Below are positions 1-18,237 of a stretch of DNA of 25,872 bases, in pieces. Under the pieces are notes generated by a model. The model saw only the letters and a program-made list of their open reading frames with translations. It was not told the DNA's origin and made no database searches. The position numbers and the translations under genes are program-made. The stretch's first letter is position 1, and the number at the start of each line of letters is the position of its first letter. Origin of the DNA: a virus; the IMG/VR virus record IMGVR_UViG_3300042691_023290, positions 1-25,872 of that record. The stretch is one strand, 5' to 3'.

Positions 1-12
1 AAGGATATCAAA

Positions 13-456
13 ATGGCACAGACGACTTGGAGCGGACCGCTCGCCTCTGGCGACCGCAACGCAGGCGAGAGCGGCGGCCCGAATATCGGCCTCGTCACCC
101 TCGCTCAGACCGCGCTCATCAACTTCGACGCCACGCTGGTACAGAACGCTACGTTCAACATCCCAGCGTCTAGCCAGATCGTTGACTTCTACGTCGACGT
201 CCTGACGCAGTACGACAGTGCCACTTCGGCGACGCTGTCGGCTGGCACGGCATCGGGTGGCACGCAGTATCTCAGCGGCATCAACGTCAAGACGGCGGCT
301 CGCCGTCCGAACGCATACAGCGCTGCGCAGCTTGCTGCCATGGACGACGTAGGCACCAACCGCACGGTTGTCGCGACCGTAACCTCTGTCGGTCAGCCGA
401 CGGCGGGTCAGGTTCGCGTCACCTTGCTGTACGTGCAAACGACGGCTGATGACTAA
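13..456 (+). CDS. Putative phage virion/decoration protein (147 aa)
   Basis: The first gene of the window is complete: an AAGGA-type ribosome binding site lies within the first bases and ATG follows at 13. The protein is neutral to acidic and rich in Ala, Thr and Val, with alternating hydrophobic residues typical of an all-beta virion protein. It has no signal peptide, no membrane segment and no catalytic motif. The first residues (MAQTTWSGPLASGDR) and the last third (the VATVTSVGQPTAGQVRV stretch) resemble a small protein family common in environmental tailed phages, usually lying just downstream of the capsid gene. A role as a decoration or minor head protein is inferred from position and composition only. 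It is followed by an 80-base gap holding a strong hairpin. Confidence 0.8.
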   Translation: MAQTTWSGPLASGDRNAGESGGPNIGLVTLAQTALINFDATLVQNATFNIPASSQIVDFYVDVLTQYDSATSATLSAGTASGGTQYLSGINVKTAARRPNAYSAAQLAAMDDVGTNRTVVATVTSVGQPTAGQVRVTLLYVQTTADD

Positions 457-477
457 TCGCTGACGCGATGGTATAAG

Positions 478-517
478 GCGGTTGGGTAGCGGCTCGGAAG
501 TCCCCGCTACCCACCGC
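478..517 (+). terminator. Strong intergenic hairpin without a U-tract
   Basis: Between the 147-aa and 132-aa genes, GCGGT (478-482) and GGGTAGCGG (484-492) pair with CCGCTACCC (504-512) and ACCGC (513-517), leaving T483 bulged. This gives about 14 base pairs around an 11-base loop. The downstream bases (ATTACTCG) are not T-rich, so this is not a textbook intrinsic terminator. It could be a weak terminator, an RNA-processing site or a stabiliser of the upstream mRNA end. A GAGGAA ribosome binding site for the next gene begins a few bases later, at 525. Confidence 0.5.
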
Positions 518-536
518 ATTACTCGAGGAATTTATC

Positions 537-935
537 ATGGCCGACGCTGTAACCACCCAGACCATTTTCGACGGCGAGCGTATGGCCGTCATGAAATTTA
601 CGAACATCTCCGATGGAACCGGCGAGACCGGCGTCTTGAAGGTTGATGTATCGGCTCTCAGCCCCAACGCTTTTGGCGCAGCATGCGACGGCGTGACCAT
701 TGAGAGGCTCCACTGCTCGATCAACGGCATGTCTGTGAGCCTCCTATGGGACGCCACTTCGGACGTGCCGGCTTTTATCGCGGCTCCGGGCGTATACACT
801 TTCGATTTCTGTAAGATCCAGATCCCCAACGACGCGGGCGCAGGCAAGACCGGCGACGTTCTATTCACCACCATCGGGGCGAGTGCAGGCGACACCTACA
901 CCATCGTCCTTGAGATGGTTAAGTCGTACGTGTAA
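537..935 (+). CDS. Putative phage virion structural protein (132 aa)
   Basis: The ATG at 537 has a GAGGAA site (525-530) at good spacing. The 132-aa product begins MADAVTTQTIFDGERMAVMKF and ends in a YTIVLEMVK strand, with an internal ISDGTGETG turn and a GAGKTGDVLFTT segment. This pattern belongs to a conserved but functionally unassigned family found beside capsid genes in many environmental tailed phages. GAGKTG looks superficially like a P-loop, but the rest of the protein is all-beta and too small for an NTPase, so that reading is rejected. No signal peptide or membrane segment is visible. A small head or neck structural role is inferred. Its TAA overlaps the ATG of the next gene by one base, suggesting translational coupling. 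Confidence 0.75.
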   Translation: MADAVTTQTIFDGERMAVMKFTNISDGTGETGVLKVDVSALSPNAFGAACDGVTIERLHCSINGMSVSLLWDATSDVPAFIAAPGVYTFDFCKIQIPNDAGAGKTGDVLFTTIGASAGDTYTIVLEMVKSYV

Positions 936-1369
936 TGGCTGGCGCGTGGACGCGTAAAGAAGGGAAGAACCCGGAGGGCGGCCTGAACGCCAAGGGCCGG
1001 GCCTCTTTGCGCGCTCAGGGCCACGATATCAAGCCGCCGGTCAGTGCCAAACAGGCGAAGAAGTCCCCCAAGGCCGCAGGCCGCCGTAAGAGCTTCTGCG
1101 CGCGAATGTCAGGCATGCCCGGCCCGATGAAGGACGAGAAGGGTCGGCCGACGCGCAAGGCCCTTTCGCTCCGCAAGTGGGACTGTAAAGCCGAGGGGGG
1201 CAGTGTGACAAAGCCGGTGTGGGACAAAAAGCGTCCGAAGGATCTCGGGAAGCCGAAGAGCCTGTCCGTCAAAAAGAAGGCCGCCGCAAAGCGTCGTGCC
1301 GAGGCTGCAGGCCGGCCATACCCCAATCTCGTTGATAATCTCGCCGTAGCGCGCAAGAAAGGTAAGTGA
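935..1369 (+). CDS. Basic DUF6321-like phage protein
   Basis: This 144-aa protein is very rich in Lys and Arg. The core (AGAWTRKEGKNPEGGLNAKGR at the N-terminus, then GRRKSFCARMSGMPGPMKD, then a KALSLRKWDC end) matches what I recall as the DUF6321 family, which occurs mainly in phages. Two Cys residues (in SFCARM and KWDC) belong to the conserved core. The C-terminal 55 residues are a Lys/Ala-rich basic tail. The function of the family is unknown; the charge suggests binding to DNA, RNA or another polyanion, which is inference. The ATG is embedded in the stop of the preceding gene (TAATG), and the next gene starts one base after its own stop, so it sits in a tightly coupled cluster with a second basic protein. 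Confidence 0.85.
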   Translation: MAGAWTRKEGKNPEGGLNAKGRASLRAQGHDIKPPVSAKQAKKSPKAAGRRKSFCARMSGMPGPMKDEKGRPTRKALSLRKWDCKAEGGSVTKPVWDKKRPKDLGKPKSLSVKKKAAAKRRAEAAGRPYPNLVDNLAVARKKGK

Positions 1370-1370
1370 C

Positions 1371-1823
1371 ATGGACGGTTACAAAGACAGCACCAAGGTC
1401 CAGTACATGAAGGGTGGATCCGCTGGCACGAAGGGCGCGGCTAAGATCTCCAAAGTCATGGGCGAGTTCAAGCGCGGAGAGCTGCACAGCGGCTCGAAGA
1501 AGGGCCCCGAGGTCACCAGCAAGAAGCAGGCTATCGCTATCGCCCTCAGTGAGGCGGGCAAGAAGCCCATGAAGAAGGCCCGAGGCGGTATGGTCGAGGA
1601 GGGCATCTCCACGCGTCCCGTCGACGCCAAGGGCCGCCGTATGCGTATGGACACCGTAGCCGTCGACAATTCGCCTAAGCCCCCGAAAAAGGGCATTGGC
1701 GCTATCGATCTCGCCATTATGGCCGCCAAGCGCGCCTCCAAGGCCGTGCCGGCCCACACCAACAAGCCAATGATCAAACGCGCATCGGGCGGTCTCGCCT
1801 GCATGCCGGGTCGCAAATCTTAA
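1371..1823 (+). CDS. Basic DUF6496-like phage protein
   Basis: This 150-aa Lys-rich protein contains a core near residues 24-65 (KISKVMGEFKRGELHSGSKK followed by GPEVTSKKQAIAIALSEAGK) that I recall as the DUF6496 family, found in bacteria and phages and without known function. The rest is low-complexity and basic: a KKARGG segment, a middle stretch with RPVDAKGRRMRMD, and an end in KRASGGLACMPGRKS. The start ATG at 1371 is preceded by AAGAAAGG and lies one base after the previous stop. Together with the DUF6321-like gene it forms a pair of basic small proteins beside the head genes; packaging-related DNA binding is possible but unproven. A strong terminator follows directly. Confidence 0.85.
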   Translation: MDGYKDSTKVQYMKGGSAGTKGAAKISKVMGEFKRGELHSGSKKGPEVTSKKQAIAIALSEAGKKPMKKARGGMVEEGISTRPVDAKGRRMRMDTVAVDNSPKPPKKGIGAIDLAIMAAKRASKAVPAHTNKPMIKRASGGLACMPGRKS

Positions 1824-1830
1824 CGGGGGA

Positions 1831-1865
1831 CGGCGGCTGGGTAGGGCCGGCCGCCGCAGTTTTTT
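1831..1865 (+). terminator. Rho-independent terminator
   Basis: CGGCGGCTGG (1831-1840) pairs with CCGGCCGCCG (1847-1856) as a 10-bp stem with one G-T (G·U in RNA) pair and a GTAGGG loop. A run of six T (1860-1865) follows. This is a classic intrinsic terminator for the transcript covering the small genes upstream. The next gene starts at 1880, so downstream expression needs read-through or a promoter; I could not identify a convincing -10/-35 pair in the remaining bases. Confidence 0.8.
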
Positions 1866-1879
1866 AGAAAGAGAAAGTC

Positions 1880-2284
1880 ATGGCCAACGCACTATACCCG
1901 CTCTGGAAGCAGTCGATCCTCCAGTTCGCGGCCAACAACAACCTCTCGTCGGGCACCGTCAACGTCGCCCTGATCGATACCGGCGTGTACACTTACAGCG
2001 CCGCGCACCAGTTTTGGACGTCTGCCTCGGCGGCGGCGGTAGGCACGCCGCAGGTAATCGGCTCCAAGACTTTCACTAACGGTGTGTTCGATGGTGCGGA
2101 TGTGACCTTTACGGCTGTTACTGGTAACTCCGCCGAGGCGCTGATTATTTACATCGACACCGGCACTGCGGGTACGTCCCCACTTGTGGCTTTCATCGAT
2201 ACAGGTGTGACGGGTCTCCCAGTCACTCCTAACGGCGGCAATATCAACGTGGTTTGGAACGCGTCGGGTATCTTCGCCCTGTAA
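1880..2284 (+). CDS. Conserved phage protein of unknown function (134 aa)
   Basis: Starts at the ATG at 1880 behind a purine-rich AAAGAGAAAG segment. The protein opens MANALYPLWKQSILQF and then reads as alternating beta strands: VNVALIDTGVYTYSAAHQFW, KTFTNGVFDGADVTFTAVTG, and VAFIDTGVTGLPVTPNGG near the end. I recognise this as a very common small protein of environmental tailed phages and some prophages, annotated only as hypothetical or structural. No signal peptide, membrane helix or catalytic motif is visible. It is the first gene after the terminator and lies 11 bases before the repeat protein, so it is probably co-expressed with the tail and fibre genes. A virion role is inferred from context. 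Confidence 0.75.
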   Translation: MANALYPLWKQSILQFAANNNLSSGTVNVALIDTGVYTYSAAHQFWTSASAAAVGTPQVIGSKTFTNGVFDGADVTFTAVTGNSAEALIIYIDTGTAGTSPLVAFIDTGVTGLPVTPNGGNINVVWNASGIFAL

Positions 2285-2295
2285 GGGGGTAGCCC

Positions 2296-4767
2296 ATGGC
2301 TTTTGCTAGTGTTGGCAACGGGGGTACGGGCGTAAGTTCGACCTCCGGCACGACCCTTAACGTCAACGCGTCGCGTGACATTACCGGGACTAGCCAGTTT
2401 GCAATCCTTGTTGTTTCTTGCGACAACACTTCCACCGGCGACGGTCCGAGCAACGATGTCACTTCGGTATCAAACGCGGACGGCGGCACTTGGACAAAAC
2501 TAGGGGAATACACCAACGGTAACGGCGCGGCTGCGGCTGGCGTCACTACCGCTATATTTCAGTATATTCCCGGCGCTGGCGGGGAAATCCGCCAAGGCGA
2601 TCCGGCAACTATTACCTTCGTCTCTGCCCGCGTCCAGAAGGCCGCCTCGATGTGGGTTTTCACAAGGGCGGCGAACACACCCATATCACTTGGCGCTGCC
2701 GCCATAGGTAATGGCGTTGACGCGACAACAGGCTTCGGCAGCGTTGCCTTCTCCGGTCTCAGCAACATCGCGCGTCTGTATATTCGTGGCTTGGGCAAAG
2801 AGGCTCAGACCACCACCCAGATAACGCCGACCACCAGCTTCACTGCGATGACGCAGGCGAACTCGGCTGCTGTCGCCGCTGCGATTGCCACTCGCGGCGA
2901 GTTCCGTATCTTTACGGGTACTGGCCTAACGTCCAACCCGACGCTGGCAGTAACTGGTGACACTTCTGGTGTTTTTGTCGCCCTTGTCGAAAGCGTTGCG
3001 CAAACGCTCACCCAGTCGGCGCGTTTTAATAATACCAACACCTTCTTTGGCCCTACAGTCACGCCCGACGCGGTGACGCTCACCCAGTCGGCGCGTTTCG
3101 ATGAAGTTGTCGATTTCTATTCGCCTACGGTGTCTCAACCGGCCGGCGGGCAGACGCTCGATCCAGCTCTGTTTACCAATACCAACACCTTTTACGCGGC
3201 CACAGCATCCGCCTCTGATACGCTGACCCCTGCGCGGTTCGACAACACCAACACTTTTTACGCGGCTACTGTAAGCCCCGGCGCAGTGACGCTCAGTCCA
3301 GCGCGGTTCGACAACGCTAACACTTTTTACGCCGCGACGGTCACGCGTGGGGCTATCACTCTCCAGCCCGCGCGATTTGACAACGCTAACGCCTTCTACG
3401 CGGCGACAGTCACTATCGGCGCGGTGACGCTGACCCCTGCGCTGTTTAACAACACCAATACCTTCTACGCGGCCACTGTAAGCCCCGGCGCAGTGACGTT
3501 GACCCCTGCACGTTTTGACAACGCCAACACTTTTTACGCGGCGACGGTCACTATCGGCGCGATTACTCTGCAGCCCGCGCGTCTTGATAACACCAACACC
3601 TTTTACTCAGCGACGGTCAACGCGGGCCCTGTCACCCTGACTGCGTCGCTGTTTACCAACAACAACGCTTTCTACAGCCCTGCGGTGGTCGCGGGCACTA
3701 CACTCGTCCAAACGTCACGCTTCGATAACACGAACACTTTCTACGCCGCTACAGTCGCGCGTGGAGCCGTGACACTGCAACCCGCACGCTTTGATAACGC
3801 CAGCACCTTCTACTCAGCTACGGTGTCACAAGGCGCAGGCTCGCAGACCCTGACCGCCGCGCTGTTTACCAATACCAATACTTTTTATGCCGTTACGGTC
3901 GCGCGCGGGGCTATCACTCTCCAGCCCGCGCGGTTCGATAACACGAACACTTTCTACGCCGCTACAGTCGCGCGTGGCGCGGTTACGCTGCAGCCCGCGC
4001 GTTTCGATAACACGAATATCTTTTACGCAACGGCAGTCGTCCCTGCGGCCATTACGCTTCAGCCAACGCGTCTGGACAATACCAACCAGTTCTATTCCGT
4101 AACGGTTACGGCCCGCAATCAGGTCTCACCGCCGTTATTCGAAAATACCAACACCTTCTATGCGGCGACGGTTGTCCCCGCCGCAATTACGCTCAACCCG
4201 CCGCGTGTAAACAACGTCAATACCTTCTACGCGGCGATAGTTGAGGACGATTACCCCCTTGATCCGTCATTGGTCGTCAACACCAACACCTTTTACGCGG
4301 CGACGGTGACGCGCGGCGCGGTGACGCTGCAGCCCTCGCGCTTCAACAACACCAACGTCTTTTACCCGGCGGTGCTGTTTGCCGACCAAAAGCTGCTGCC
4401 TGCGCGCTTTGACAACGACAATGAGTTCTACCCAGTTGTAGCCCAGTCGACGTACACCCTCACGCAGGCGCTGCGTTTCAACAACATTTCGACCATCTAC
4501 GGGCCAACTGTCGTCGCGCTCCCGCCGGTCCTGCGTCCGCCGCTGTTCGTTAACCCGAACACCTTCTACTCGCCTTACATTTTGGCTTTTCCACGGCCGG
4601 ATTTCCCGCAACCCGATGCGCGGCAGAACATGCCCACAATCGCCGAGACGCCGCGAACCACCGTCGAGATCCAGATTGCCGCGCGCCTGCCGGCTCCGAC
4701 CATCGTCGAGAGCGCGCGACGGCCGATGCCCGAACCCGCCGCCCCAAGATCGTCGATGGTGTTGTGA
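2296..4767 (+). CDS. Large 23-repeat virion/fibre-like protein (823 aa)
   Basis: ATG at 2296 follows an AAGGGGG site that begins in the previous stop codon. Residues 1-237 form a beta-rich N-terminal domain. Residues 238-768 consist of 23 tandem repeats of 22-26 residues with consensus LxPARFDNTNTFYAATVxxG; the most constant positions are the Leu-Pro opening, Phe, Asn-Asn/Thr-Asn and the FY pair. The last 55 residues are rich in Pro and Arg and non-repetitive. Several repeats end in GAVT or GAIT. I recall similar FNNTNTFY repeats in other phage proteins but know no named domain. Regular repeats of this length suggest an elongated beta structure such as a fibre or appendage, which is inference. 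The stop overlaps a possible GTG start of a 28-codon ORF. Confidence 0.85.
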   Translation: MAFASVGNGGTGVSSTSGTTLNVNASRDITGTSQFAILVVSCDNTSTGDGPSNDVTSVSNADGGTWTKLGEYTNGNGAAAAGVTTAIFQYIPGAGGEIRQGDPATITFVSARVQKAASMWVFTRAANTPISLGAAAIGNGVDATTGFGSVAFSGLSNIARLYIRGLGKEAQTTTQITPTTSFTAMTQANSAAVAAAIATRGEFRIFTGTGLTSNPTLAVTGDTSGVFVALVESVAQTLTQSARFNNTNTFFGPTVTPDAVTLTQSARFDEVVDFYSPTVSQPAGGQTLDPALFTNTNTFYAATASASDTLTPARFDNTNTFYAATVSPGAVTLSPARFDNANTFYAATVTRGAITLQPARFDNANAFYAATVTIGAVTLTPALFNNTNTFYAATVSPGAVTLTPARFDNANTFYAATVTIGAITLQPARLDNTNTFYSATVNAGPVTLTASLFTNNNAFYSPAVVAGTTLVQTSRFDNTNTFYAATVARGAVTLQPARFDNASTFYSATVSQGAGSQTLTAALFTNTNTFYAVTVARGAITLQPARFDNTNTFYAATVARGAVTLQPARFDNTNIFYATAVVPAAITLQPTRLDNTNQFYSVTVTARNQVSPPLFENTNTFYAATVVPAAITLNPPRVNNVNTFYAAIVEDDYPLDPSLVVNTNTFYAATVTRGAVTLQPSRFNNTNVFYPAVLFADQKLLPARFDNDNEFYPVVAQSTYTLTQALRFNNISTIYGPTVVALPPVLRPPLFVNPNTFYSPYILAFPRPDFPQPDARQNMPTIAETPRTTVEIQIAARLPAPTIVESARRPMPEPAAPRSSMVL
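3007..4599 (+). repeat. 23 tandem coding repeats of about 69 bp
   Basis: The region encodes 23 copies of a roughly 23-residue unit inside the 823-aa gene. Unit lengths vary from 22 to 26 codons while the frame is preserved. Most copies differ by synonymous changes, but one stretch (3721-3764 and 3934-3977) is repeated identically over 44 bases three units apart, a mark of recent duplication or gene conversion. Unit spacing is reminiscent of a CRISPR array but the array is coding throughout with no distinct spacers. Confidence 0.9.
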
Positions 4768-4850
4768 CGGTTTACGCGGGCAACTTTTTTTGGTATTCAT
4801 ACGACGCTAGAAATGCTTGCCTTCGCTGGCGAGCTGCTGCGTCTTGTTAG
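4764..4850 (+). CDS. Possible 28-aa coupled mini-protein
   Basis: A GTG at 4764 overlaps the TGA of the 823-aa gene as GTGA, the same junction seen at 6396, 16598 and 16942, where long genes start. The frame runs 28 codons to TAG at 4848: an aromatic, Arg-rich peptide beginning MTVYAGNFFWYSYDARNA and ending CLRWRAAASC. Without it, 95 bases between 4768 and 4862 hold no gene, which is unusual in this compact region. A T7 tract (4785-4791) lies inside it. No clear ribosome binding site precedes it. It may be a real coupled peptide, the remnant of a longer gene, or chance. Confidence 0.3.
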   Translation: MTVYAGNFFWYSYDARNACLRWRAAASC

Positions 4851-4862
4851 CGAGCGGAGCTT

Positions 4863-5849
4863 ATGGCGTACTCAGGAACAGTCTCTCAGACCCAATTTAA
4901 CACGCGTCGCGTTATCGAGAACGCGGCCCGGCGGTGTAAACTGCCGGCCCAGTCGTTGACACCTGAGCACGTCGATATCGCGAATGACCAGCTTTTTCTC
5001 CTCCTGTCGGATCTCGCGAACCGTGGCATCCAGCTCTGGTGCGTCCAAAAGAACATCTATCCGCTATACGAGGGGCAGTCACAGGTCGTCACCTACACCG
5101 GCACGGTTGATATCCTGAATAGCAACCTGCGCACCTTGCAGCGCGCCACCGGCATTACAACGACCGGCGCACAGTTTTACGAGGTGTTTTTTCCTACCCC
5201 GACTGCGGTGTCGACAGTCGGTGTCAAGTGGGCCGGCCCGTCAGTGCCGATCGCGATCCAGCGTAGTGACGACGGCGCGACGTGGGTGACGGTCCAGCAG
5301 GACAACCAGACCGCCGCAGCGGGCGAGTGGACGTGGTTCGATCTGACCACCGTGGTCGCCGCCTCATACAGCCGCATCATCGCTCTGAGCGGCAATTTGA
5401 GCGTGGAGCGGGTGTTTCTCGGCAACATGCCCATGGAGATCCCCCTCGCGCGCCTCAGCCGCGACGACTACACCAACCTGCCCAACAAGACCTTCTCCTC
5501 GAACCGGCCCCTCCAGTACTGGCTCGACCGCCAGAGCCTGTCGCCGGTCATGAACCTTTGGCCGGTGCCGAACGCGCAGGCTGAGACGCAGCAGATCGTT
5601 GTTTGGTGCCAGCGCCATATCATGGATGTCGGCACCATGACGCAAGAGATCGAAGTGCCTCAGCGCTGGTACGAGGCCATTGTGGCTATGCTCGCCGCCC
5701 GTCTCGCTATGGAGTATATCGAAGTCGACGTGAACCTCGTCGGCCTGCTTGACCAGAAGGCCAAGGAGAGCCTCTATTTCGCCCAGCAGGAAGAGCGGGA
5801 CAACAGCCCGATGATGATCCTGCCCAATATCAGCATGTACACGCGGTAA
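4863..5849 (+). CDS. P22 gp4/adaptor-like tail accessory protein with inserted discoidin-like domain
   Basis: The 328-aa product has an alpha-helical N-terminal part (residues 10-90: VIENAARRCKLPAQSLTPE, then LFLLLSDLANRG, then LYEGQ and GTVDILNSN) and a C-terminal part (200-328) with LNLWPVP-type and VPQRWYEAIVAMLAARLAMEY segments. These resemble phage gp4-type tail accessory or adaptor proteins. P22 gp4 is about half this length. The excess lies in residues about 92-190, which read like a galactose-binding (F5/8 type C, discoidin-like) beta sandwich: a TVGVKWAG strand, IQRSDDGATWVTV, then GEWTWFDL and SYSRII. A role in head completion or neck assembly is inferred from this resemblance. GGAG at 4856-4859 precedes the ATG at short spacing. 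Its TAA overlaps the next ATG. Confidence 0.7.
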   Translation: MAYSGTVSQTQFNTRRVIENAARRCKLPAQSLTPEHVDIANDQLFLLLSDLANRGIQLWCVQKNIYPLYEGQSQVVTYTGTVDILNSNLRTLQRATGITTTGAQFYEVFFPTPTAVSTVGVKWAGPSVPIAIQRSDDGATWVTVQQDNQTAAAGEWTWFDLTTVVAASYSRIIALSGNLSVERVFLGNMPMEIPLARLSRDDYTNLPNKTFSSNRPLQYWLDRQSLSPVMNLWPVPNAQAETQQIVVWCQRHIMDVGTMTQEIEVPQRWYEAIVAMLAARLAMEYIEVDVNLVGLLDQKAKESLYFAQQEERDNSPMMILPNISMYTR

Positions 5850-6079
5850 TGCCGGTAGAGGGCTTCCTCGACACGCGCGGCAAGCAGTGGCTCGGTGTGG
5901 GCCTTTGCGACCGGTGTAAGCGTAAATTCCCTATCGAGGAGTTGTGGAGCGATCGCAACAACCCGGCCCTGAAGGTGTGCCGCGACGACCTTGACGAGTA
6001 CGATCCTTACCGCCTGCCTGCACGGACTGGCGAACAGATCGCCCTTCGCTACCCGCGTCCTGACGAGGTGCTCAGCTGA
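5849..6079 (+). CDS. Small Cys-motif phage protein, copy 1 (76 aa)
   Basis: A 76-aa protein starting FLDTRG after five residues. It carries C20-x2-C23 in a GLCDRCKRK context, a third Cys at 44 followed by RDD, then DEYDPYRLPAR. Three Cys plus a nearby Asp (D46 or D47) could form a small zinc-ribbon-like site, an inference. It is a clear paralogue of the next gene: both share FLDTRG, LGxGxCxRCxRK, xVC, YDPYRLPAR and IAL in the same order. I recall such proteins next to neck or tail accessory genes in other phages, always without assigned function. Starts are coupled at both ends (TAATG and TGATG). Confidence 0.8.
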   Translation: MPVEGFLDTRGKQWLGVGLCDRCKRKFPIEELWSDRNNPALKVCRDDLDEYDPYRLPARTGEQIALRYPRPDEVLS

Positions 6080-6399
6080 TGCCGCTCTTTTTAGACACAC
6101 GCGGCAACTCGACGCTCGGCATAGGCATTTGCAGCCGCTGTAGCCGCAAGATGTCGCTAGACAAACTGCAGCCGGATCCGAACTATCCGGGCCTGCGCGT
6201 ATGCGATAAAGACATGGATGACTACGACCCCTACCGCCTGCCTGCGCGGCAGACGGAGAGTATCGCGCTGCCCTTCATGCGGACGGATACGCCGATATCC
6301 ACCAATCCGAGCGGCTTCATCACGCAGAACGAATTGCAGTTCCTCATCACCGAGGACAACGACGAATTTATCATCTTTTTCGAGGATGACGAGCTGTGA
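6079..6399 (+). CDS. Small Cys-motif phage protein, copy 2 with acidic tail (106 aa)
   Basis: Paralogue of the preceding gene: C18-x2-C21 (ICSRCSRK), C42 with D45, then DDYDPYRLPAR. After the shared region it continues for about 40 residues not found in copy 1, ending in a strongly acidic and aromatic tail (NELQFLITEDNDEFIIFFED). The tail may be an added interaction segment. The pair most likely arose by tandem duplication. Function is unknown; position between the gp4-like protein and the fibre genes suggests a minor virion or assembly role. Its TGA overlaps the GTG start of the 851-aa fibre gene. Confidence 0.8.
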   Translation: MPLFLDTRGNSTLGIGICSRCSRKMSLDKLQPDPNYPGLRVCDKDMDDYDPYRLPARQTESIALPFMRTDTPISTNPSGFITQNELQFLITEDNDEFIIFFEDDEL

Positions 6400-8951
6400 G
6401 TGTCCCCACAAATCTCATTCCGACGACCATAACCGGCCTGCCCGAATATCAGGGCTCCGAGACGTACGGCTTCATGCCGTATATCATCGACGGGCGCACG
6501 TATAAGGTCCAATTCAGCAACATCGCGGCCGTCGGCGCGGTGCCCTCCTCGCGCACGATCGCGACGGGTACGGGCCTGATAGGCGGCGGCAACTTGTCTG
6601 CCGACCGCACAATCGCCATTGCGAATGGCGGCGTCGGCACGGCCCAGCTGGCCCCGTCAGGCGTCAGCGCGGGCGTGTACGGCTCAGATACGGCCATCCC
6701 TATCCTCACGGTCGACGTCACAGGCCGCGTCACGGCGGCCAGCACGGCACCTATCACGTTGTCGGGCTTCGTACCCACTTCACGCAGCGTCCTCGCAGGC
6801 ACAGGCCTTACAGGCGGCGGTACGCTGGCCAACGACGTCACGCTCAATATAAACTTTTCGAACTCGACGCCTCAAGCTCTCGGTGCGGCCACGGCCGGTG
6901 TCTCGACTGCTGCTGCTCGCGGGGATCACGTCCACCCGGCCGTGAACCTTTCCGACACCGGCCAAACCCAAGGCGCGCTCCCCTTGGGTCGCGGCGGCAC
7001 CGGCGACGCTCTTTCCCCCGTTGCTGGTGCCGTCGTATACTCGACGGGCACTAAGTTCGCCCTGACGAACCCGGGTCTAGAGGGCCAAGTTCTTGTCTCC
7101 AACGGCACCGATGAGCCGCAGTGGCGGACGATCACGGGCGCGGGCACCGTCACCAGCGTTAATGTGAGTGGCGGATCCACGGGCCTGTCCTTCACAGGTG
7201 GGCCGATCACCGTGTCGGGCACAATCACCATGGGCGGTGTGCTTGACTTAGATAACGGCGGCACCGGCGCGATCAATGCCTCTGACGCGCGCTTTAACCT
7301 TGGCGCGGCCGCTTCGGGCGAAATTACCTCCAGCGGCCTGACCATGGCCACAGCGCGTCTGCTAGGCCGTACAACGGCGTCGACAGGCGCAATCGAGCAA
7401 ATCACGATCGGCGCTGGCCTGAGCCTCTCTGGCGGCTCTCTGGCGAATACGGCACCTGATCAGGTAGTGTCGCTGACAGGCGGCACGGCAATTTCGATCA
7501 GTGGCAGTTACCCGGCGTTCACGATTAACAACACGGCACCGGATCAGGTAGTGTCATTGACGGCCAGTACCGGCATGTCGGTGACCGGCACGTACCCATC
7601 CTTCACCCTGACTAACACCGCGCCCGATCGAATTGTCTCGCTGGCAACCGGCACGGGTATTTCGGTTAGCGGTACATACCCCTCCTTCACCATCACGAAC
7701 AGCGCCCCTGATCAGGTGGTCTCGCTGACTGCGGGCACGGGCATCTCGATCAGCGGCACGTATCCGTCGTTCACAGTGACCAACAGCGCGCCCAATCAGG
7801 TCGTGTCGTTGACGGGCGCTGGCACGACCGTTGTCAGCGGCACTTACCCAAATTTCACAATCACTTCAAACGACCAGTTCGCAGGAACTGTCACGAGTGT
7901 TGCGGCCTCTGGCGGTACGACGGGCCTGACGTTCACCGGGTCGCCCATTACGTCGAGCGGCACTCTTACGCTCGGAGGCACCCTCGCCGTCGCGAATGGC
8001 GGCACGGGCGCAGTAAATGCAGGCGCGGCGCGGGCTAATCTGAGCGCGGCGGCGTCCGGCGCAAACACGGACATTACCTCCATCGCCCTGACCAGCGGCA
8101 CGATTACGGCCGCGCCGACTAGCGGCACAGACATCGTCAACAAGACCTACGCGGACAGCATCGCGTCGGGCGTCAATTTCCATCAGGCCGTACGTCTGGC
8201 GACGACTGCCGCATTGCCCGCCAACACTTACAACAACGGCGCGAGCGGTGTCGGCGCGACCCTTACAGCCAACGCGAACGGCGCGCTGAGTATCGACGGC
8301 ACGGCGGCAGTTGCGGGCAACCGCGTCTTGGTCAAGAACGAGGCGGCGCAGGCAAATAACGGCGTTTACACGGTAACGCAGGTCGGCAGTGGCTCGACGC
8401 CCTACATCCTGACGCGCGCCACGGATTTTGACAGCGCGGGCACCGGTGTAGACCAGATCGACGCGGGCGACTTCTTCCTCGTCACTGCCGGATCTACGCA
8501 GGCCAATACATCATGGGTGCAGCAGACGCCGCTCCCGATCACGGTCGGCACTACGGCGCTTGTTTTCACGCAGTTTGGCGCGCCGATCACGTATTCGGCG
8601 GGCACAGGCCTGTCGCTCGCCGGCACGGTCTTCAGCATCGCCAACACGGGCGTGGCAGCCTCGACCTACGGCAGCGCGTCGTCGGTGCCTGTCGTCGCCG
8701 TCAACGCCCAAGGCCAGATAACAAGCGCGAGCAACAGCTCGATCGCGATCGGCGCGTCGCAAGTTACGTCAGGCCTTTTGGCTGTTGCAGTCGGCGGCAC
8801 AAACAGTAATGCGACGCCCACTGCGGGCGCAGTTGCGTACGGCACAGGATCCGCCTACGCGTTCACAACGGCTGGCACTGCCGGTCAGGTTCTGGTATCT
8901 AACGGCGCGGGCGCACCAACTTACGGCTCGGTCAACGGGGGCACATTCTAA
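6396..8951 (+). CDS. Tail-fibre-type protein with NGGTG repeats (851 aa)
   Basis: GTG at 6396 overlaps the preceding TGA (GTGA); no in-frame ATG lies nearby at the N-terminus. The first 60 residues (ITGLPEYQG, YIIDGRTYKVQFSNI) look like the virion-attachment end of phage fibres. Repeats follow: GTGLxGGGxLxxDxT modules, a GDHVHP motif with H178 and H180, and GTVTSVxxSGGxTGLxFTGGP modules with NGGTG turns. Residues 351-490 are five 28-aa repeats of the APDQVVSLTxGTGISxSGTYPSF type. Residues about 582-730 form a module with NKTYADSIASGVNF, VLVKNEA and LTRATDFD that recurs in many phage fibres. The protein ends NGGTF without a chaperone domain. It likely forms part of an elongated trimeric fibre for host binding. 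It shares modules with the two other giant fibre genes here. Confidence 0.85.
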   Translation: MSVPTNLIPTTITGLPEYQGSETYGFMPYIIDGRTYKVQFSNIAAVGAVPSSRTIATGTGLIGGGNLSADRTIAIANGGVGTAQLAPSGVSAGVYGSDTAIPILTVDVTGRVTAASTAPITLSGFVPTSRSVLAGTGLTGGGTLANDVTLNINFSNSTPQALGAATAGVSTAAARGDHVHPAVNLSDTGQTQGALPLGRGGTGDALSPVAGAVVYSTGTKFALTNPGLEGQVLVSNGTDEPQWRTITGAGTVTSVNVSGGSTGLSFTGGPITVSGTITMGGVLDLDNGGTGAINASDARFNLGAAASGEITSSGLTMATARLLGRTTASTGAIEQITIGAGLSLSGGSLANTAPDQVVSLTGGTAISISGSYPAFTINNTAPDQVVSLTASTGMSVTGTYPSFTLTNTAPDRIVSLATGTGISVSGTYPSFTITNSAPDQVVSLTAGTGISISGTYPSFTVTNSAPNQVVSLTGAGTTVVSGTYPNFTITSNDQFAGTVTSVAASGGTTGLTFTGSPITSSGTLTLGGTLAVANGGTGAVNAGAARANLSAAASGANTDITSIALTSGTITAAPTSGTDIVNKTYADSIASGVNFHQAVRLATTAALPANTYNNGASGVGATLTANANGALSIDGTAAVAGNRVLVKNEAAQANNGVYTVTQVGSGSTPYILTRATDFDSAGTGVDQIDAGDFFLVTAGSTQANTSWVQQTPLPITVGTTALVFTQFGAPITYSAGTGLSLAGTVFSIANTGVAASTYGSASSVPVVAVNAQGQITSASNSSIAIGASQVTSGLLAVAVGGTNSNATPTAGAVAYGTGSAYAFTTAGTAGQVLVSNGAGAPTYGSVNGGTF
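7446..7865 (+). repeat. Five tandem 84-bp coding repeats
   Basis: Five consecutive 28-codon units (residues 351-490 of the 851-aa fibre), each opening NTAPDQVVSL or NSAPDQVVSL and closing with SGTYPSFTxT. The unit length is exactly constant. Copies differ mainly at third codon positions, so they are conserved as protein rather than freshly duplicated DNA. Confidence 0.9.
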
Positions 8952-11900
8952 TGGCGCAGAGCGGCTTCACGCCTATCCAGCTCTTCAGGACAACCACAGC
9001 GTCGGCGGTGCCGACTGCGGGCAGCCTCGCCGACGGCGAACTCGCGATCAACCTGACCGACGAGAAGCTCTATTTCAAAAACGCTGCGGGCGTGGTCAAG
9101 CTGCTGTCTGCTTCGAGCGGCGCGTCGGGCACTGTAACCAGCGTCGATGTAAGCGGCGGCACGACAGGCCTGAGCTTTAGCGGCGGCCCTATCACCACCA
9201 GCGGCACGATCACCATGGCAGGAACGCTGGGCGTCGCCAATGGGGGCACAGGCGCGTCTACCCTGTCTTCAGGCTATCTGCTCAAGGGTAACGGCACGTC
9301 GGCCGTCAGCGCGTCTGTTGTGTATGACAACGGCACGAACGTCGGCATCGGTACGGCCAGTCCGGGATACCTGCTGCAAGTAGGATCGCGTGTGAGCGTG
9401 GGCAGCGACGGTGTTATTCAGTGGGGGCAAGCGCTCACTGGCAGTAACCGGGGCATCCTTTCGTGGGATACAAACATAGCGAGCGTTAACGCCGCTACGA
9501 ATTTGGTTCTGGCTTCAAACGGCACTACGGAACGCATGCGCATCACCACTGCGGGCGATGTCGGTATCGGCACTTCGGCACCGGGGACGAAGCTCCACGT
9601 ATTTGCCGGCGTGGCGACAATCACATCCCCGACAGTAAATGCGACTAGCTACGCTACGCGGGAAGACGGGCTGTATTTCACCCGCAACGATATTCCGACG
9701 ACGTGGCGAAACAAAATATCCAATAGCTGGAGTGCTGACCCGTCTTTCACCACTATGAACTTCGAACTGGCGACGGGATCCGCGACGAACAATACCGTCA
9801 TGTCGCTGTTTGCGAATGGCAGTGTGGGTATCGGCACGGTCACGCCAAGTGCAAAATTGGACGTAAACGGTACAGGCTATTTCAGCGACAACGTATCGAT
9901 TGTTCGGAACAATACCGCTGGGTCATTGTCCGGGCTTACGATCAACAACCCCGGGACAACCGCAGCTTATGCGGGGATAAATATCTCCAGCGGAACAGTA
10001 ACGTCCCAACTGTTCAACGATGCTGCTGGAAACGCGGTAGTGGCAGGCGCGGTCCTACGCACCACGACCAATCACCCCTTCGTTTTTGGCACCAATGCCA
10101 CCGAACGCATGCGTATCGATGTCAACGGCAACTTGCTGGTGGGCACGACTGTAACAAACGGCCGGCTGAGCGTTGTTGGGGACCAAATCAGTATTGCTGG
10201 CGGTGGCGGATCTGGGCAGCTTGGCTTACAGATTAAAGGGATCGCGTTAAACGCTATTCCGGCCGCGCAGGTACAAGGGTATATTGCTACTGGCGATAGT
10301 ACGATAGGCGTCGCCGGGGATCTTCTTATCGCCCCTCGAACAGACGTAACGGCAAGCGTGCGCTTTATCACAGGCACGACCCCCGCCGAACGTATGCGTA
10401 TTTCCAGCATAGGCGATGTCGGCATCGGTACCTCTTCGCCGGGGGTGAGATTGCACGTAGTCGCGAGTGCGTCACAAACGGCCGCGATAATAGAGAGTAC
10501 GTCGACGAGTGCTTTCATAGGATTGCGAAATTCGGGATCCACAGCATACATCGGCGCGGACAATACCGGCGCATTTATCGTCCAAACGCCCGGGTCGAGC
10601 TTCTCGACCAAGATGCTTGTCAGCTCTACAGGCGATGTTGGTATTGGGACGAATTCGCCCGGTGCAAGATTGCATGTTGTCGGTGGCAATATTGCGGTAG
10701 ATGCTGATAGTAGAAGAATTGGCTATATAACCGACGGCACCGCAGCTAATACTGGGTATATGATCCCGTACGACGGGTCGGGTTTCCTCAGCTTACACAG
10801 CAATTTTAGCAGCGGGGGTATTAAGTTCCACACCGGGACTTCGAACGTCGAACGCATGCGCATCACCGCTGCAGGCAATGTCGGGATCGGGGCGAGTTCG
10901 CCTTCTTCAAAACTTACCGTTTTGGATGGTGATATTGAAATCGGCGCAACGGGGCTAGGAAATACCCTGCTTTCGTTCAACGGAACAATAGCCAATATAA
11001 CCGTCAATTCAAGCTCGGCCCCATTGGCGTTCGGCACCAACAGCGCTGAGCGAATGCGCATCACCAGCGCGGGCGACGTCGGCGTCGGCACCTCTACGCC
11101 CGGTTACAAGCTCGAGGCTCGCACGGACAACGCGACAGCCAGTAACTGGATAACCTCGTTCAATAATACGGCTACGGGCCCGTATGGCGCAGGTTTCATC
11201 GCCCGTGCCGTGTCGAATTTTGGCTATTTCTATATTCGCGGGGACGGCGTCGCGTATGTGGAGAACGCGGGCAACAACCCGCTAGGTCTCGCCACTAACG
11301 GCATAGAGCGTATGCGTGTGACTGGCGGGGGCAATGTCGGGATCGGCACCTCTGCGCCGGGGGCGAGGCTTGACCTCGGCGCTTATACCGGCCCCGCACT
11401 AGCAACATCCATGCTCAAAATGCAGGATGGCTGGCACGACATTATTACATCGGCTGCGGTTGTCGGTAGCCGTTACTATTACGGTGCAGGCATTTACGGG
11501 CGTTTCTACGCTGATGTTAATGGCTTCAACATAGACACCTCAAGCACGTCTGGGCCTATAATTTTCGGTACGGCTGGCTCCGAACGCATGCGCATCACCG
11601 CAGCGGGTTTCGTCGGTATCAATACCCTCTCACCCAGCGCGCTCCTCCACGTTCAGGCTGGTGACGCCCTCATCAAGTCGAGCAGCGACGGCAGCAATGG
11701 TATCCTGCGTATCCAAAACACGGCGGGTACGACGACTGTCCAGTCATACGCAGACAACAACGACGGCTGGTTGGGCGTCGTAGAAGTCAAACGCATGTCT
11801 TTCGTCACCGGCAATATCCGCCGCATGTGTATCGACACCGCAGGCAACGTCGGGATTGGTACGGCTTCGCCTACGGCGATGTTGACCGTCAACGGCACCG

Positions 11901-14900
11901 CCAAAGTTGGCGAGGGCGTGGCTTCGAACACGTCGAAGTTCATGGTCAATACCCTGTCCGGTACTGCGGCAGGTATCCAACTTATTCAGGACGCCAACGA
12001 AAGTTGGATCATCCAGAACCCAGCGTCGACAAACGTGTTGACCTTCAGCAACAGCGGCACCGAGCGCATGCGCATCACTGCTGCGGGGCTTGTCGGGATT
12101 GGGACAAGCGCGCCCATCGCGCGCCTCGACCTCGGGACGCCGGGAAACACGACTTTTCTCTATGCCACCAATGGTGTTGACAGCACCTTTGGCGTGAGCT
12201 TCGCAACGAATGCCACGACGATAACCAACCTAGGCGGAAGTGCAGCAATTGCATTCGCCACCGGCGCCGCTGAGCGCATGCGCATCACTGATACGGGCAA
12301 CGTCGGGGTAGCCACGGCTGCACCCATCGGGCGCTTTGCAGTGCAAGCCTCGCAACAGGTAGGCTTCAATGGCGCGGTTAGCGGTTCGCCGCAAGCGGGC
12401 AACCTGTTCTACGGCACCGACAATACCGGCTGGAAGTTCGACATCGGCAAGCTGGTAAGCGGCACCTTCACTGCCCAAATGACGTTCCAAGACAACGGCA
12501 ACGTCGGGGTCGGCACGACTTCGCCCGCTGTTCGGTTTGTTATCAGCAACGCCGGCGCGAATGGGTTCGAGTTTAATACCGCAGACAATATCTTCCAGAC
12601 GTACAACCGCGCCACCTCCGCGTATACGGATATGCTGCTCTACGCCCTGCAGCATCGGTTTTTCGCCGGAACATCGCCTACCGAACGCATGCGCATCGAC
12701 AGCAGCGGCAACGTCATGGTCGGCACCACGGCGGCCAACAACAAGTTTCTGGTTACATACGCCAACCCGGTTTCGGTGCCTGCTGCGGGTGCTGGTGGAC
12801 ATTGCACTGCATTCGGTACGGTCGGCTATGGCCTTGCGACTGGCGCGCTCACTAACGGCAATGCCTATCTGCAGGTGACCCGTTGGGACGCCACCGCAAC
12901 AAACTACGACCTTCTCCTCCAGCCGAATGGCGGCAACGTCGGGATCGGGACAACCGCACCGGGCGCAAAATTAACTTTAACTGGGGCGTCCGAGCTTCTG
13001 CGTCTCGCTAATGCGACACCATTTCTTTCTTTCTACAATGCCGCACAGTCCGCACGTTTTGGTTATATTCAACACACAGGTACAGCCCTTGCTCTAGTGA
13101 ACGAGCAAGCAGGTCAGATGGAGTTCTACACCAACTCTGCTGAGCGCATGCGTATCGAAGCGGCGGGGAATGTTGTTGTAGGTACAACTGGGCAAACCGC
13201 TCGCGGTAATCTCGATATTAGCCTTGGAAACAATGCTACGGCTGGCATCGAGCGCAGTCTGCACTTCGGCTACTCCGCTGCCGATTTCTACGGTTTCAAA
13301 CTGTCTAACATCAACAGCCCGGGTAGTTTCGGCGCAGGTACATTCTCCATCCAGCGCGGCACAACCGCAGCATGGGTAGATGCGGTACTTATCAATGATG
13401 TCGGCAACGTCGGGATCGGGACGACTTCGCCGGAAAGCCCTTTCCAAGTCCTAGCCCGTTTCCGTGTCCAGAGTGATGGCGTTGTACGTTGGGGCAGCGA
13501 TGTTCGCGCTGGGCTCTTTAACGAAAGTGGCTATCTCACTTGGAACACTGGACGGGTTGCCGTCGGCTATCAGGGCATAGGTGCAGTAACCTTCGAAACT
13601 TCTGGTCAAGAACGCGTACGCATCGACAGCAGCGGCAACGTCGGTATCGGTACGAGTTCGCCGGGTGCGCCATTGGATGTGGTTGGCACCACAAGGTCAG
13701 GTAATTTCCGTGTTAACTCTGGCGGTAACGTCACCGGCGGCGGTATGTGGGGTAACGATACAAACCTCGCATTTAATACCGGCAGCACCGAGCGCGTACG
13801 CATCGACAGCAGCGGCAACGTCGGCGTCGGAACGGCCACACCTAACAATAGGCTACAGAGCGCCTACAGCGTTCCGGCCTCAGTGCCAGCCTCGGGTGCG
13901 GGGGCGCACGGCCTCGCTGTAGGCTCGGCCAACTTCGGGCTTGCCGCTGGGGCGCTCAGCAACGGCAACGGCTATCTGCAAGCAACCCGCTGGGATGGAA
14001 CCGCCGGGAACTACGACCTCCTTCTGCAGCCGAATGGCGGCAACGTCGGAGTTGGCACAATCGGGGCCGGCAACGTCGGCATCGGCACAACCGCGCCGGT
14101 TACGAAGCTCGACGTGTCTGGCAACCACAGCAATACCCGCGCACGCCTCTACTCCACCGGCGGAGACGGCACGAGTGGGTTCGGGCCGTCCATCCTGTCC
14201 CTCTGGGCTTCGGAGCCGGGCGTCAGCTACACTGGCGCTGGTATCGGCGGCAACATCAGCGGCAGCGTTGGACAAGGCCGCGTAGATAGCACAAACGGCC
14301 AGTCCTACATCCGCTTCATGCCCGCCGACATAGTCTTCGGCACCAGCGCCACAGACGCCGTCGAGCGCATGCGTATCGACAGCAGCGGCAATGTTGGCAT
14401 CGCCACGTCCTCACCCACAGGCACTCTGCAGGTGGCAGGCACCTCGGCCTTCTCGTGGTCGGGTGGCGGCGCTACGTCCGCACTCGCGGTAATCGGCACT
14501 CAAGGCACTGCAGGTGGCTCGCTCTTTGTCCACACCGCCAGCTTGAACTCGAGTTTCGCCTCCGGCCTCGCGATCGACGGCACCTACTCCAGCCCGCTCT
14601 CGACGATCAACATTAAGGCCGTTGGTGTCCGGTCTGGCGGCGGTTATGGCAGCAACATCTCGTTCCAGACATCGAACGAGAATACTCTCGCCGAGCACAT
14701 GCGTATCACCAATACCGGCAACGTCGGGATTGGAACGACTTCGCCGTCACTTAAATTTGTCGTCTCTAATGGCGGCGCAGCTGGACTTGAGATTGACCCG
14801 ACAGCTTTAGCCTCGGCACCTATTATCCAGTCCTACAACCGCTCAGGCGCGGCGTACACGCAACTTGGCTACAACGCCCTACAGCATATCTGGCAAGTTT

Positions 14901-15718: not shown

Positions 15719-15719
15719 A

Positions 15720-16070
15720 ATGGCAGTTACCAACACATGGGGCGTCGTGCAGATGGACGCCTACCCCGAATATGACGGCGAGACCGACGTGGTCTTCACC
15801 GTGCATTGGAACCTGACCGGGACCGAGACGGTCTCCGGCACGGCCTACACCGGCTACGTCTATGGCTCGGTCGGCGTCAGCCTCGACGAAGGTGCGACCT
15901 TCACACCTTACGCCGATCTTACTGAGGCGCAGGTCATCGGTTGGGTGCAAGACGCGCTTGGCGAAGATCAAGTTATTGCGTATGAAGATAACGTGGCCCA
16001 GCAGATTGCTGATCAAATCAATCCGCCTGTCGTCACCCCGCCTCTGCCGTGGGCTCCCCCGGCCGAGTAA
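15720..16070 (+). CDS. DUF7936-like small phage protein (116 aa)
   Basis: ATG at 15720 lies one base after the fibre stop, with AAGGGA just upstream. The sequence (NTWGVVQMDAYPEYDGETDV, VVFTVHWNLTG, then YVYGSVGVSLDEGATFTPY, LTEAQVIGWVQDALGE and AQQIADQINPPVVTPPLPWA) matches a very common phage family that I recall as DUF7936. The N-terminal half reads as beta strands, the middle as a helix, and the end is Pro-rich. There is no signal peptide or membrane segment. The family is typically found beside fibre genes; its function is unknown, and a fibre-associated or accessory role is only inferred from position. Confidence 0.8.
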   Translation: MAVTNTWGVVQMDAYPEYDGETDVVFTVHWNLTGTETVSGTAYTGYVYGSVGVSLDEGATFTPYADLTEAQVIGWVQDALGEDQVIAYEDNVAQQIADQINPPVVTPPLPWAPPAE

Positions 16071-16077
16071 CCTGTAG

Positions 16078-16083
16078 AAGGAG
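16078..16083 (+). promoter_or_regulatory. Ribosome binding site for the 53-aa gene
   Basis: AAGGAG six bases upstream of the ATG at 16090. It fixes the start of a gene short enough to be overlooked. Confidence 0.8.
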
Positions 16084-16089
16084 CGCAAA

Positions 16090-16251
16090 ATGGAAGTATC
16101 TCTGAAATTGTCCGTCGATGAAGTCAACGCCGTCCTCCAGACGCTGGGCCAGCTGCCCACGTCGAGCGGCGCTTGGCCTCTTCTCATGAAAATCCGTGAG
16201 CAGGCCGAAGGCCAGCTTCCGGCTCAACCACAAGAGGCCGAAGCCGAATGA
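16090..16251 (+). CDS. Conserved small phage protein (53 aa)
   Basis: A 53-codon gene from the ATG at 16090 to TGA at 16249-16251, with a strong AAGGAG site. The product begins MEVSLKLSVDEVNAVLQTLG, continues QLPTSSGAWPLLMKIREQAE and ends in a Gln/Glu/Pro-rich tail. A beta strand followed by two amphipathic helices is likely. I recall close relatives as tiny hypothetical proteins in other phages, often next to fibre or lysis genes. The function is unknown. Its stop overlaps the start of the DUF5856-like gene as ATGA, suggesting the two are translationally coupled and perhaps work together. Confidence 0.85.
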   Translation: MEVSLKLSVDEVNAVLQTLGQLPTSSGAWPLLMKIREQAEGQLPAQPQEAEAE

Positions 16252-16601
16252 TCGAACAGCTCATCAGCCGCGTCTTTTACGCGCGTAACCTTTCCCACTG
16301 GAACCACTGGCGTACGAAAAGCTACAGCCAGCATCAGGCTCTGGGAGCGTTTTACGACGACGTCATCGACGCGGTTGATGGGCTGGTCGAGGCGCATCAG
16401 GCCGTCAATGGTCTGGTCGGCGCGATCCCCTCGCCCAGTGAGACGGGATCGGACGTCCTCAAGATCCTCAAGGCCGACGCCGAGTGGATCGAAGAGAACC
16501 ATGAGAAGGTCTGCGGCGGCAACCGCGCGATCGGCAATCTCGTCGACGGCGTCACTGACGTATACCTCCGCACGATCTATAAACTCGAAAATCTGAAGTG
16601 A
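16248..16601 (+). CDS. DUF5856-like, Dps/ferritin-like small protein (117 aa)
   Basis: A 117-aa, probably all-helical protein. I recall the core (FYARNLSHWNHWRTKSYSQH, then ALGAFYDDVIDAVDGLVEAH) as DUF5856, a mainly phage family of unknown function. In this sequence H17, H29, D44 and E48 have the spacing H-x11-H-x14-D-x3-E. That is exactly the spacing of the E. coli Dps ferroxidase ligands (H51, H63, D78, E82), and H17-W-N also matches the Dps HWN. The C-terminal half (VLKILKADAEWIEENHEKV, then LVDGVTDVYLRTIYKLENL) offers two more helices for a four-helix bundle. At 117 residues it lacks the Dps N-terminal tail and is shorter overall than the usual 160-170. It lies inside a coupled operon between the fibre and lysis genes. 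Iron binding, DNA protection or a purely structural role are all possible. Confidence 0.8.
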   Translation: MIEQLISRVFYARNLSHWNHWRTKSYSQHQALGAFYDDVIDAVDGLVEAHQAVNGLVGAIPSPSETGSDVLKILKADAEWIEENHEKVCGGNRAIGNLVDGVTDVYLRTIYKLENLK

Positions 16602-16945
16602 GCCTAATGTCCGAGGATATTCTTTCCGTAAAGTTGGAAACCTTACACGCCGACGTCGGTGAGGTTAAGGCGGCCCTCAACCGCCTCTCGGACGCAATCA
16701 CAAAGCTCGCCCTTGTCGAGCAGCAACAGGGCCAGATATCACAGGCCCTCGAACGTGCCTTCAAGGCGATAGGCAAGCTCGAAGAGACCGTCAGTAAGGA
16801 TCTAGAAAACCTCGACGACCGCGTCACTGCCGTCGAGATGGCGCAGCCGGCGCACAGCGAGACGGCCAAGTGGGTTGATCGCGGTCTAGTGGCGCTGGCC
16901 GGCGCAGGCGCGGCGATGCTCGCCAAGGGCGTGGGGCTGCTGTGA
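16598..16945 (+). CDS. Coiled-coil protein with C-terminal membrane segment, lysis-cassette associated
   Basis: The GTG at 16598 overlaps the previous stop (GTGA); the in-frame ATG at 16607 is an alternative start giving a product three residues shorter. Residues 5-80 are a long amphipathic, heptad-like helix (VKLETLHADVGEVKAALNRL and onward to LENLDDRVTAVEM). After a short linker, WVDRGLVALAGAGAAMLAKG near the end forms one hydrophobic segment. This layout resembles XhlA-type haemolysin or holin-accessory proteins, but I cannot assign a named family. It directly precedes the endolysin with a four-base overlap, so a role in lysis control or membrane anchoring is a reasonable inference. Confidence 0.7.
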   Translation: MSLMSEDILSVKLETLHADVGEVKAALNRLSDAITKLALVEQQQGQISQALERAFKAIGKLEETVSKDLENLDDRVTAVEMAQPAHSETAKWVDRGLVALAGAGAAMLAKGVGLL

Positions 16946-18128: not shown

Positions 18129-18237
18129 TCGGATGCAGTGGGAGGCCGACTTGGTCTACGCGTACGGTGAGTGCGCCGCACGACACCGCGCGGCGATAGA
18201 GGCATGGCAAAAGGCGGTGCAAACTAGCCGCAAATGA
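17977..18237 (+). CDS. Outer-membrane lipoprotein spanin subunit (Rz1-like)
   Basis: This 86-aa protein starts inside Rz in a different frame and overlaps it by 152 bases before continuing past its end. The N-terminus (MWKCLPIALCLPTLSAC) is a lipoprotein signal with lipobox L14-S-A-C17, so Cys17 would be lipidated and the mature protein about 70 residues. Pro-rich stretches (PMPPPPANL, then LPPPPLPLIDP) follow, as in known Rz1 proteins. The C-terminus is a helix ending WQKAVQTSRK. The strong internal AAGGAGG site and the lipobox make the start secure. It would partner Rz across the periplasm, implying a host with an outer membrane. Confidence 0.9.
   Translation: MWKCLPIALCLPTLSACSSTQYETPMPPPPANLAQECKTLPPPPLPLIDPDRMQWEADLVYAYGECAARHRAAIEAWQKAVQTSRK

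Follow-up and report, generated by a model that had tools for sequence, protein, structure and literature searches.

The window analysed here (the whole stretch of DNA, 25,872 bp) spans an entire IMG/VR virus record, which carries a gene for an 823-residue repeat protein, P0001 (Table 1). The phrog_644 gene ends 12 bp upstream of this gene, and a gap of 96 bp separates it from the phrog_12985 gene. Tail fibre genes with products of 851, 2255 and 1511 residues lie in the vicinity, and endolysin, holin and spanin-like genes are also found in the record. Two separate Rz-like spanin matches (13-456 and 17733-18128) are about 17 kb apart. Two other tail fibre genes contain tandem repeats of their own (7458-7815 and 21104-22785; periods 84, 249 and 216 bp). 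The phrog_12985 protein shows an apparent insertion at about residues 103-178, which weakly resembles F5/8-type galactose-binding domains (Pfam E 0.015-0.036, under the cut-off) and gives weak matches to beta-N-acetylhexosaminidases in the PDB (E 0.023-0.031).

Table 1. Coordinates of P0001, its parts and neighbouring genes in the window
Feature	Position	Strand	Basis
phrog_644 protein	1880..2284	+	PHROG match; 45% identical to Brujita gp23
823-residue repeat protein P0001	2296..4767	+	ORF
P0001 N-terminal module, residues 1-235	2296..3000	+	AlphaFold2 model, relatives, structure matches
P0001 repeat array, residues 242-773, core [RL]FxNxNTFYAATV	3019..4614	+	core positions
P0001 C-terminal tail, Arg/Pro/Met motifs of about 10-12 residues (RQNMPTIAETPR...)	4585..4764	+	
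phrog_12985 protein, next gene downstream of P0001	4863..5849	+	PHROG match
Tail-fibre-like protein	6396..8951	+	phrog_8745 over part; head decoration family also matches
Tail fibre protein, 2255 residues	8951..15718	+	phrog_9942, phrog_18345

The repeat array of P0001 is real. As judged from core positions, it comprises 23 units, each 22-25 residues long, of which the first begins at residue 242, the next two at 266 and 291, and the last at 749; sixteen are 23 residues long, four 22, two 25 and one 24, the end of the last unit, which no unit follows, being assumed. The unit reads approximately [AP]-[RL]-F-x-N-x-N-T-F-Y-A-A-T-V-x-x-G-x-V-x-L-x-P, and the array, rich in Thr, Ala and Asn, accounts for 65% of the protein. 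The initial annotation had described 23 units of about 23 residues with a regular NTNTFY-type core over two thirds of the protein, which is borne out; its span of 3007-4599 (residues 238-768) is slightly displaced here. NxNxFY occurs 19 times, against a maximum of one in 2000 composition-keeping shuffles; autocorrelation peaks at 23, 46 and 69, and Tandem Repeats Finder reports periods of 69 and 207 bp in the DNA of the array. The copies are imperfect, with a mean pairwise identity of 55% (range 17-96%) among the sixteen 23-mers, and conserved Asn, Phe and Tyr are each encoded by both of their codons. Units 1 and 2 depart from the type, with FDEVVDFY as the core of unit 2, and a profile search retains 22 units at threshold versus 23 by position. 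The C-terminal tail overlaps the end of the last unit and is mostly of low model confidence; similar tails are found in relatives.

Relatives come almost entirely from uncultured phages. No phage record shares DNA with positions 1-20000 by megablast, a search from which near-identical records may be excluded. At the protein level, one of 50,697 phage records matches at 1e-5, namely Pseudanabaena phage Pam2, whose hypothetical protein Pam2_68 has 13 NTNTFY-type units by profile. Pam2 is a siphovirus whose tail measures about 300 nm (PMC9382816). Uncultured viral contigs gave 22 distinct loci with P0001 as query, and close repeat alignment confirmed 152 of 279 candidate stretches, of which the best 80 were kept. 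A search of cellular genomes (84,980 species), which needs short peptide patterns and may miss divergent copies, confirmed one candidate stretch out of 60, from Mesorhizobium sp. Root157; two weak matches were obtained among 72,556 plasmid records. After prior removal of L001 and L036-L047 as duplicates, 111 repeat ORFs were reduced to 60 non-redundant arrays at 90% identity: 58 from IMG/VR contigs (P0001 included), one from Pam2 and one from Mesorhizobium. Most units in P0001 plus the 20 first-found relatives are 22 or 23 residues long (96 and 89 of 210, respectively).

A phrog_644 homologue lies on the same strand within 4.5 kb upstream in 32 of the 34 arrays with at least 4.5 kb of upstream sequence, and is missing there in the two others. 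It is within 100 bp in 4 of these 34, and in 11 of the 54 arrays with at least 300 bp upstream; in Mesorhizobium, the distance is 4 bp. None of the 60 arrays has this homologue downstream. Of the 46 arrays with at least 1.2 kb of downstream sequence, 20 (P0001 included) are succeeded within 150 bp by a homologue of phrog_12985; such a homologue precedes the array in 4 of 60. One contig (L049:3095-5668) encodes, between its phrog_644 gene and its repeat gene, a protein of 857 residues with no PHROG match at E <= 0.001, the sequence of which resembles, by eye, a parallel beta-helix protein.

Comparison of 643 units from the 60 arrays revealed a strong coupling within the unit. When position 1 is R or K, position 3 is D, N or E in 206 cases and another residue in 13; when it is not, the figures are 19 and 405. 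This coupling may reflect a salt bridge on one face of a strand, or two lineages of units. Clustering or alternation of neighbouring unit types was looked for in 405 neighbour pairs and gave no clear signal: 234 pairs are of the same R/L type, for a shuffled mean of 242.6, and 151 of 1000 shuffles do not exceed the observed count. At positions 4 and 6, 549 units have N/N, 49 N/Q, 37 N/S and 8 D/D, under a search pattern restricted to N or D at position 4 and to N, D, Q or S at position 6. Asp stands at position 4, and mostly at 6, in a hypothetical protein of Microcystis phage Mwe-JY26 (XAI96042), where P0001 has Asn; an N-terminal stretch is followed there by 23-residue DGDTFG units. Twelve listed units of this protein carry Asp at position 4 and Asp or Glu at position 6, as the pattern required, and such D-type cores run along its array. 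In the diverged 23-residue array of Roseobacter phage CRP-6 gp57 (L129:5413-6681), 11 of 14 units show, by eye, the same residue at both positions, either Glu or Gln, and QxQ and ExE alternate in one run of six; its N-terminal leader, MFGTSPFAAATFAG, resembles the leaders of several NTNTFY proteins. The paired NxN, DxD, ExE and QxQ changes suggest, short of proof, that positions 4 and 6 are close together in the structure. The N, F and Y columns are invariant or nearly so across 46 array segments, and unit length appears by eye to change near one place.

The fold was modelled with AlphaFold2, both runs being of the monomer. In the full-length model (38-row alignment; mean pLDDT 63, pTM 0.41), residues 291-400 come in 10-residue blocks of pLDDT 74-84, and each unit has about three short strands; pLDDT is under 50 in units 1 and 2, and residues of about 490-514 and 744-823 are mostly low. 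A 204-residue array segment (46 in-register rows) gave a best model of pLDDT 87 and pTM 0.80, again with about three strands per unit, the other four models having pLDDT 73, 71, 64 and 62. The RFxNxNTFY stretch forms one strand in the segment model and two in the full-length model, strand boundaries differing between runs. The initial annotation had proposed a solenoid or a beta shaft. The monomer prediction that it recommended supports the regular, beta-rich character, with a solenoid as the leading prediction, but only one of the five segment models is confident.

Structural comparison with VIA-align 2 related the segment to parallel beta-helices, with a best Z of 14.6 (rmsd 2.7, 199 of 204 residues). 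The 15 best rows, which have the coil architecture predicted for P0001, show Z of 13-14.6 and rmsd of 2.7-3.5 over 192-204 residues, at a sequence identity of 4-16%. The matched proteins, including the polysaccharide lyase RbmB, SRRP adhesins and phage tailspikes, are helices that we take to be right-handed; OatWY and LpxD, presumably left-handed, align to the segment only at rmsd 12-13. Known beta-helices differ from coil to coil, unlike the regular array of P0001. For the full-length model, the top row (Z 16.6, rmsd 3.3, 276 residues) is an antifreeze protein with a calcium-dependent beta-helix. Foldseek found no match in the PDB at E <= 0.001, and seven matches to predicted viral structures at this threshold were left unused because of their poor superposition (rmsd 17-38).

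The models point to a beta-solenoid with one coil per unit. A right-handed parallel beta-helix would have coils of about 20-25 residues with three parallel strands, an arrangement predicted in both runs, with one of the five segment models confident. We lean only slightly towards this fold, because, according to PMC11795689, AlphaFold2 can produce unrealistic, sometimes confident, solenoids for perfect repeats; subject to this reported bias, the array is not predicted as disordered low-complexity sequence, the outcome that would have spoken against the initial annotation. A genuine solenoid is favoured by the average unit identity of only 55%, by Asn, Phe and Tyr being the most conserved residues and by indels that lie, as judged by eye, near one place. 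On the other hand, Arg at position 1 (16 of the 23 units of P0001, Leu in seven) and Asp at position 3 (12 of 23) would stack like charges, though the seven Leu units are interspersed.

The regularly alternating hydrophobic residues and the nearby tail fibre genes could also fit a trimeric fibrous shaft similar to a triple beta-spiral, with three intertwined chains and one rung of a tail fibre or spike per unit, the AlphaFold2 runs having covered the single chain. Triple beta-spiral shafts also tolerate indels in their turns. However, both runs show about three short strands per unit, the segment matches parallel beta-helices, and the repeat of the classic adenovirus shaft is shorter than the period of 22-23 residues, so that we regard such a shaft as rather unlikely. 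An extended or disordered low-complexity linker, which would only space two end modules, appears improbable: the Thr/Ala/Asn-rich composition, the single confident segment model among five and the solenoid bias reported in PMC11795689 agree with it, but the near-invariant N, F and Y columns, the coupling of positions 1 and 3, the many aromatics and the localized length changes fit a folded repeat.

In the N-terminal module, residues 1-135 are modelled mostly as beta strands, and most of 168-282 is below pLDDT 50. Residues 1-130 resemble domains of sandwich-like build (Z 5-8.2), among them the receptor-binding head of Tuc2009 (Z 6.6), which may just reflect a common arrangement. No match to the N-terminal module was found among PDB sequences, and comparison of profiles lent no support to a relationship with Brujita gp27.

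No Pfam or NCBIfam family matches P0001 above its curated cut-off (TMEM43, MapZ_C2, PRK06438 and others scored under it), and no PDB sequence matches at E <= 1. A three-unit profile gave ten weak PDB matches, with E 0.032 at best; eight were to chains of antibodies or nanobodies, and all were discarded. The absence of a named domain, as initially claimed, thus holds for Pfam and NCBIfam, but the array matches the PHROGs profile phrog_8501, a 'minor tail protein' classed as tail, at E 1.2e-22. Five stretches pass, the best aligning residues 469-586 with positions 10-125 of 133. The repeat is thus not wholly undescribed, and under the refuting condition set in the initial annotation this match to a described family weakens the claim of novelty, although the libraries searched name neither a domain nor a fold or mechanism for phrog_8501. 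Further matches, to phrog_25690 (5.7e-6) and phrog_26504 (0.0026), are to families of unknown function.

Full-length phrog_8501 matches are found in mycobacteriophages: Catdawg gp61 (8.6e-78), Brujita gp24 (2e-73) and Familton gp62 (4.3e-77). These proteins have 132-133 residues and lack the N-terminal module and the Pro/Arg tail of P0001. Since P0001, with 823 residues, carries these additional parts and departs from the build of about 133 residues with the repeat alone, it is filed as a phrog_8501 relative rather than a plain member. Brujita gp24 and Familton gp62 have the same 23-residue period, with core residues that differ from those of P0001 (RIASSASVGKPTV against RFDNTNTFYAATV). With the P0001-type repeat profile, gp24, gp62, CRP-6 gp57 and the Microcystis phage protein score above each of 500 permutations keeping period and composition. 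Among 500 plain shuffles, 2 attain the score of Familton gp62 and none those of the other three. Kinship of the NTNTFY repeat with the GVQATGQVG 22-mers, which come after the array in several relatives, was not supported, 109 and 279 of 500 period-keeping permutations reaching their scores. BLASTP of P0001 against Brujita gp24 gives E 1e-7 as a single comparison; with tblastn alone, array matches to mycobacteriophages are non-significant (E 0.1 or more).

The reach of the profile is partial. Of nine NTNTFY-array relatives scanned, phrog_8501 matches four (L062, L085, L115 and L024) and not the five others (L018, L102, L048, L111 and L016). It matches neither CRP-6 gp57 nor the Microcystis protein, which matches phrog_13352 instead and differs from P0001 in its end modules; the Mesorhizobium genome gave no match in a scan where the controls were silent too. 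The starts of the minor tail proteins phrog_553 and phrog_13352 match phrog_8501 members, and in phrog_553 a start of this kind is fused to the Brujita gp27 domain, so that an array plus a globular domain appears as a recurring design. The repeat comes first and the domain second, unlike in P0001, which matches neither family at E <= 0.1.

Gene order supports this relationship. Brujita gp23, directly before gp24, is the counterpart of the phrog_644 protein of the record, and in both Brujita and Catdawg the phrog_644 gene directly precedes the phrog_8501 gene, as it precedes P0001; two adjacent genes thus correspond between a metagenomic phage and mycobacteriophages. The mycobacteriophage counterparts sit among minor tail genes, two genes after a minor tail protein annotated with lysin or carboxypeptidase activity. 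Published LC-MS/MS (PMC4351075) detected 304 peptides of Catdawg gp61 in an unpurified lysate. The same source gives, for Corndog gp64 (41549-41950), which we infer to be equivalent to Catdawg gp61 from its same length and position, 89 peptides in once-banded and 9 in twice CsCl-banded particles, and, for gp63, at the phrog_644 position, 17 peptides in twice CsCl-banded particles. These mass spectrometry data concern Cluster O relatives only, P0001 itself being known from sequence. Family and gene order together make P0001 very probably a virion protein of the tail, and the tail appendage initially envisaged is partly supported, through its tail association. A role in decorating the capsid surface instead, which the matches of some record genes to 'head and packaging' PHROGs might evoke, is very improbable given the tail class of phrog_8501, the minor tail setting of the mycobacteriophage counterparts and the tail fibre genes close to P0001.

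Unit number varies widely, from 3 to 26 (median 10) by profile in 61 complete non-identical ORFs, even between proteins with similar ends: 10 units in L016 versus 8 in L022 (end similarity N 0.97, C 0.98), 9 in L087 versus 8 in L092 (N 1.0, C 0.96) and 14 in L105 versus 12 in L100 (N 0.91, C 0.86). P0001 and L027 have the N-terminal part alone in common (N 0.88, C 0.16), and L111 and L108 the C-terminal part alone (N 0.28, C 0.94). Modules at the N-terminus are of several beta-rich types (as judged by eye), Laminin_G_3 (L126), Gly_rich_2 (L080, L102) or short leaders. These comparisons show N- and C-terminal modules swapping independently of each other across relatives. L115 contains a Peptidase_M14 domain (7.3e-11), so that a zinc carboxypeptidase domain, NTNTFY units and an N-terminus that looks LamG-like by eye occur together in one protein (L115:5221-8070). 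In L085, L105, L100, L070, L063, L109 and L078, the NTNTFY array is succeeded by another tandem repeat, TGVQATGQVGTVTV, whose sequence did not support kinship with the first; its period is 22 in L085 and L105, and QTPxW-like motifs come next.

P0001 is probably, to our mind, a modular scaffold that gains and loses units. The reading that we cautiously favour overall is a length-variable scaffold of the virion tail with exchangeable ends. The array would be a rod built as a beta-solenoid, probably a right-handed one, to which every unit of 22-23 residues contributes a single coil of three short strands according to the models, and stacked columns of Phe/Val/Leu and of Asn would hold it together. 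This rod would act as a passive scaffold of adjustable length linking exchangeable modules: a beta-rich, LamG or glycine-rich domain or a short leader at the N-terminus, and, at the C-terminus, other repeats or a tail that is either charged or rich in Pro and Arg. The pattern of shared and distinct ends could result from recombination between similar units, which would alter rod length and swap end modules between phages. The likely benefit would be a varied reach and specificity of host contact; whether the end modules are adhesive seems to us evenly balanced.

In the openly licensed PMC literature, neither the NTNTFY motif nor the combination of phage, beta-solenoid and minor tail protein was found, and no description was found of the NTNTFY form, of its distribution among uncultured phages or of the way in which units are gained or lost and ends swapped. 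More tentatively, the array could be a widespread unnamed tail block and a recombination hub at which coils are added or removed and any N-terminal head is joined to any C-terminal tail, with unit number and end modules evolving independently and tuning tail contact, and the NxN/DxD/ExE/QxQ positions may form internal ladders, some of them metal-binding. If the favoured reading is right, a common uncharacterised class of phage tail proteins would gain a name, a boundary and a testable fold. Metagenomic phages would be linked to mycobacteriophage minor tail proteins of unknown function, and a component of the tail would be seen to evolve in length and in its end modules as repeats are gained, lost and swapped.
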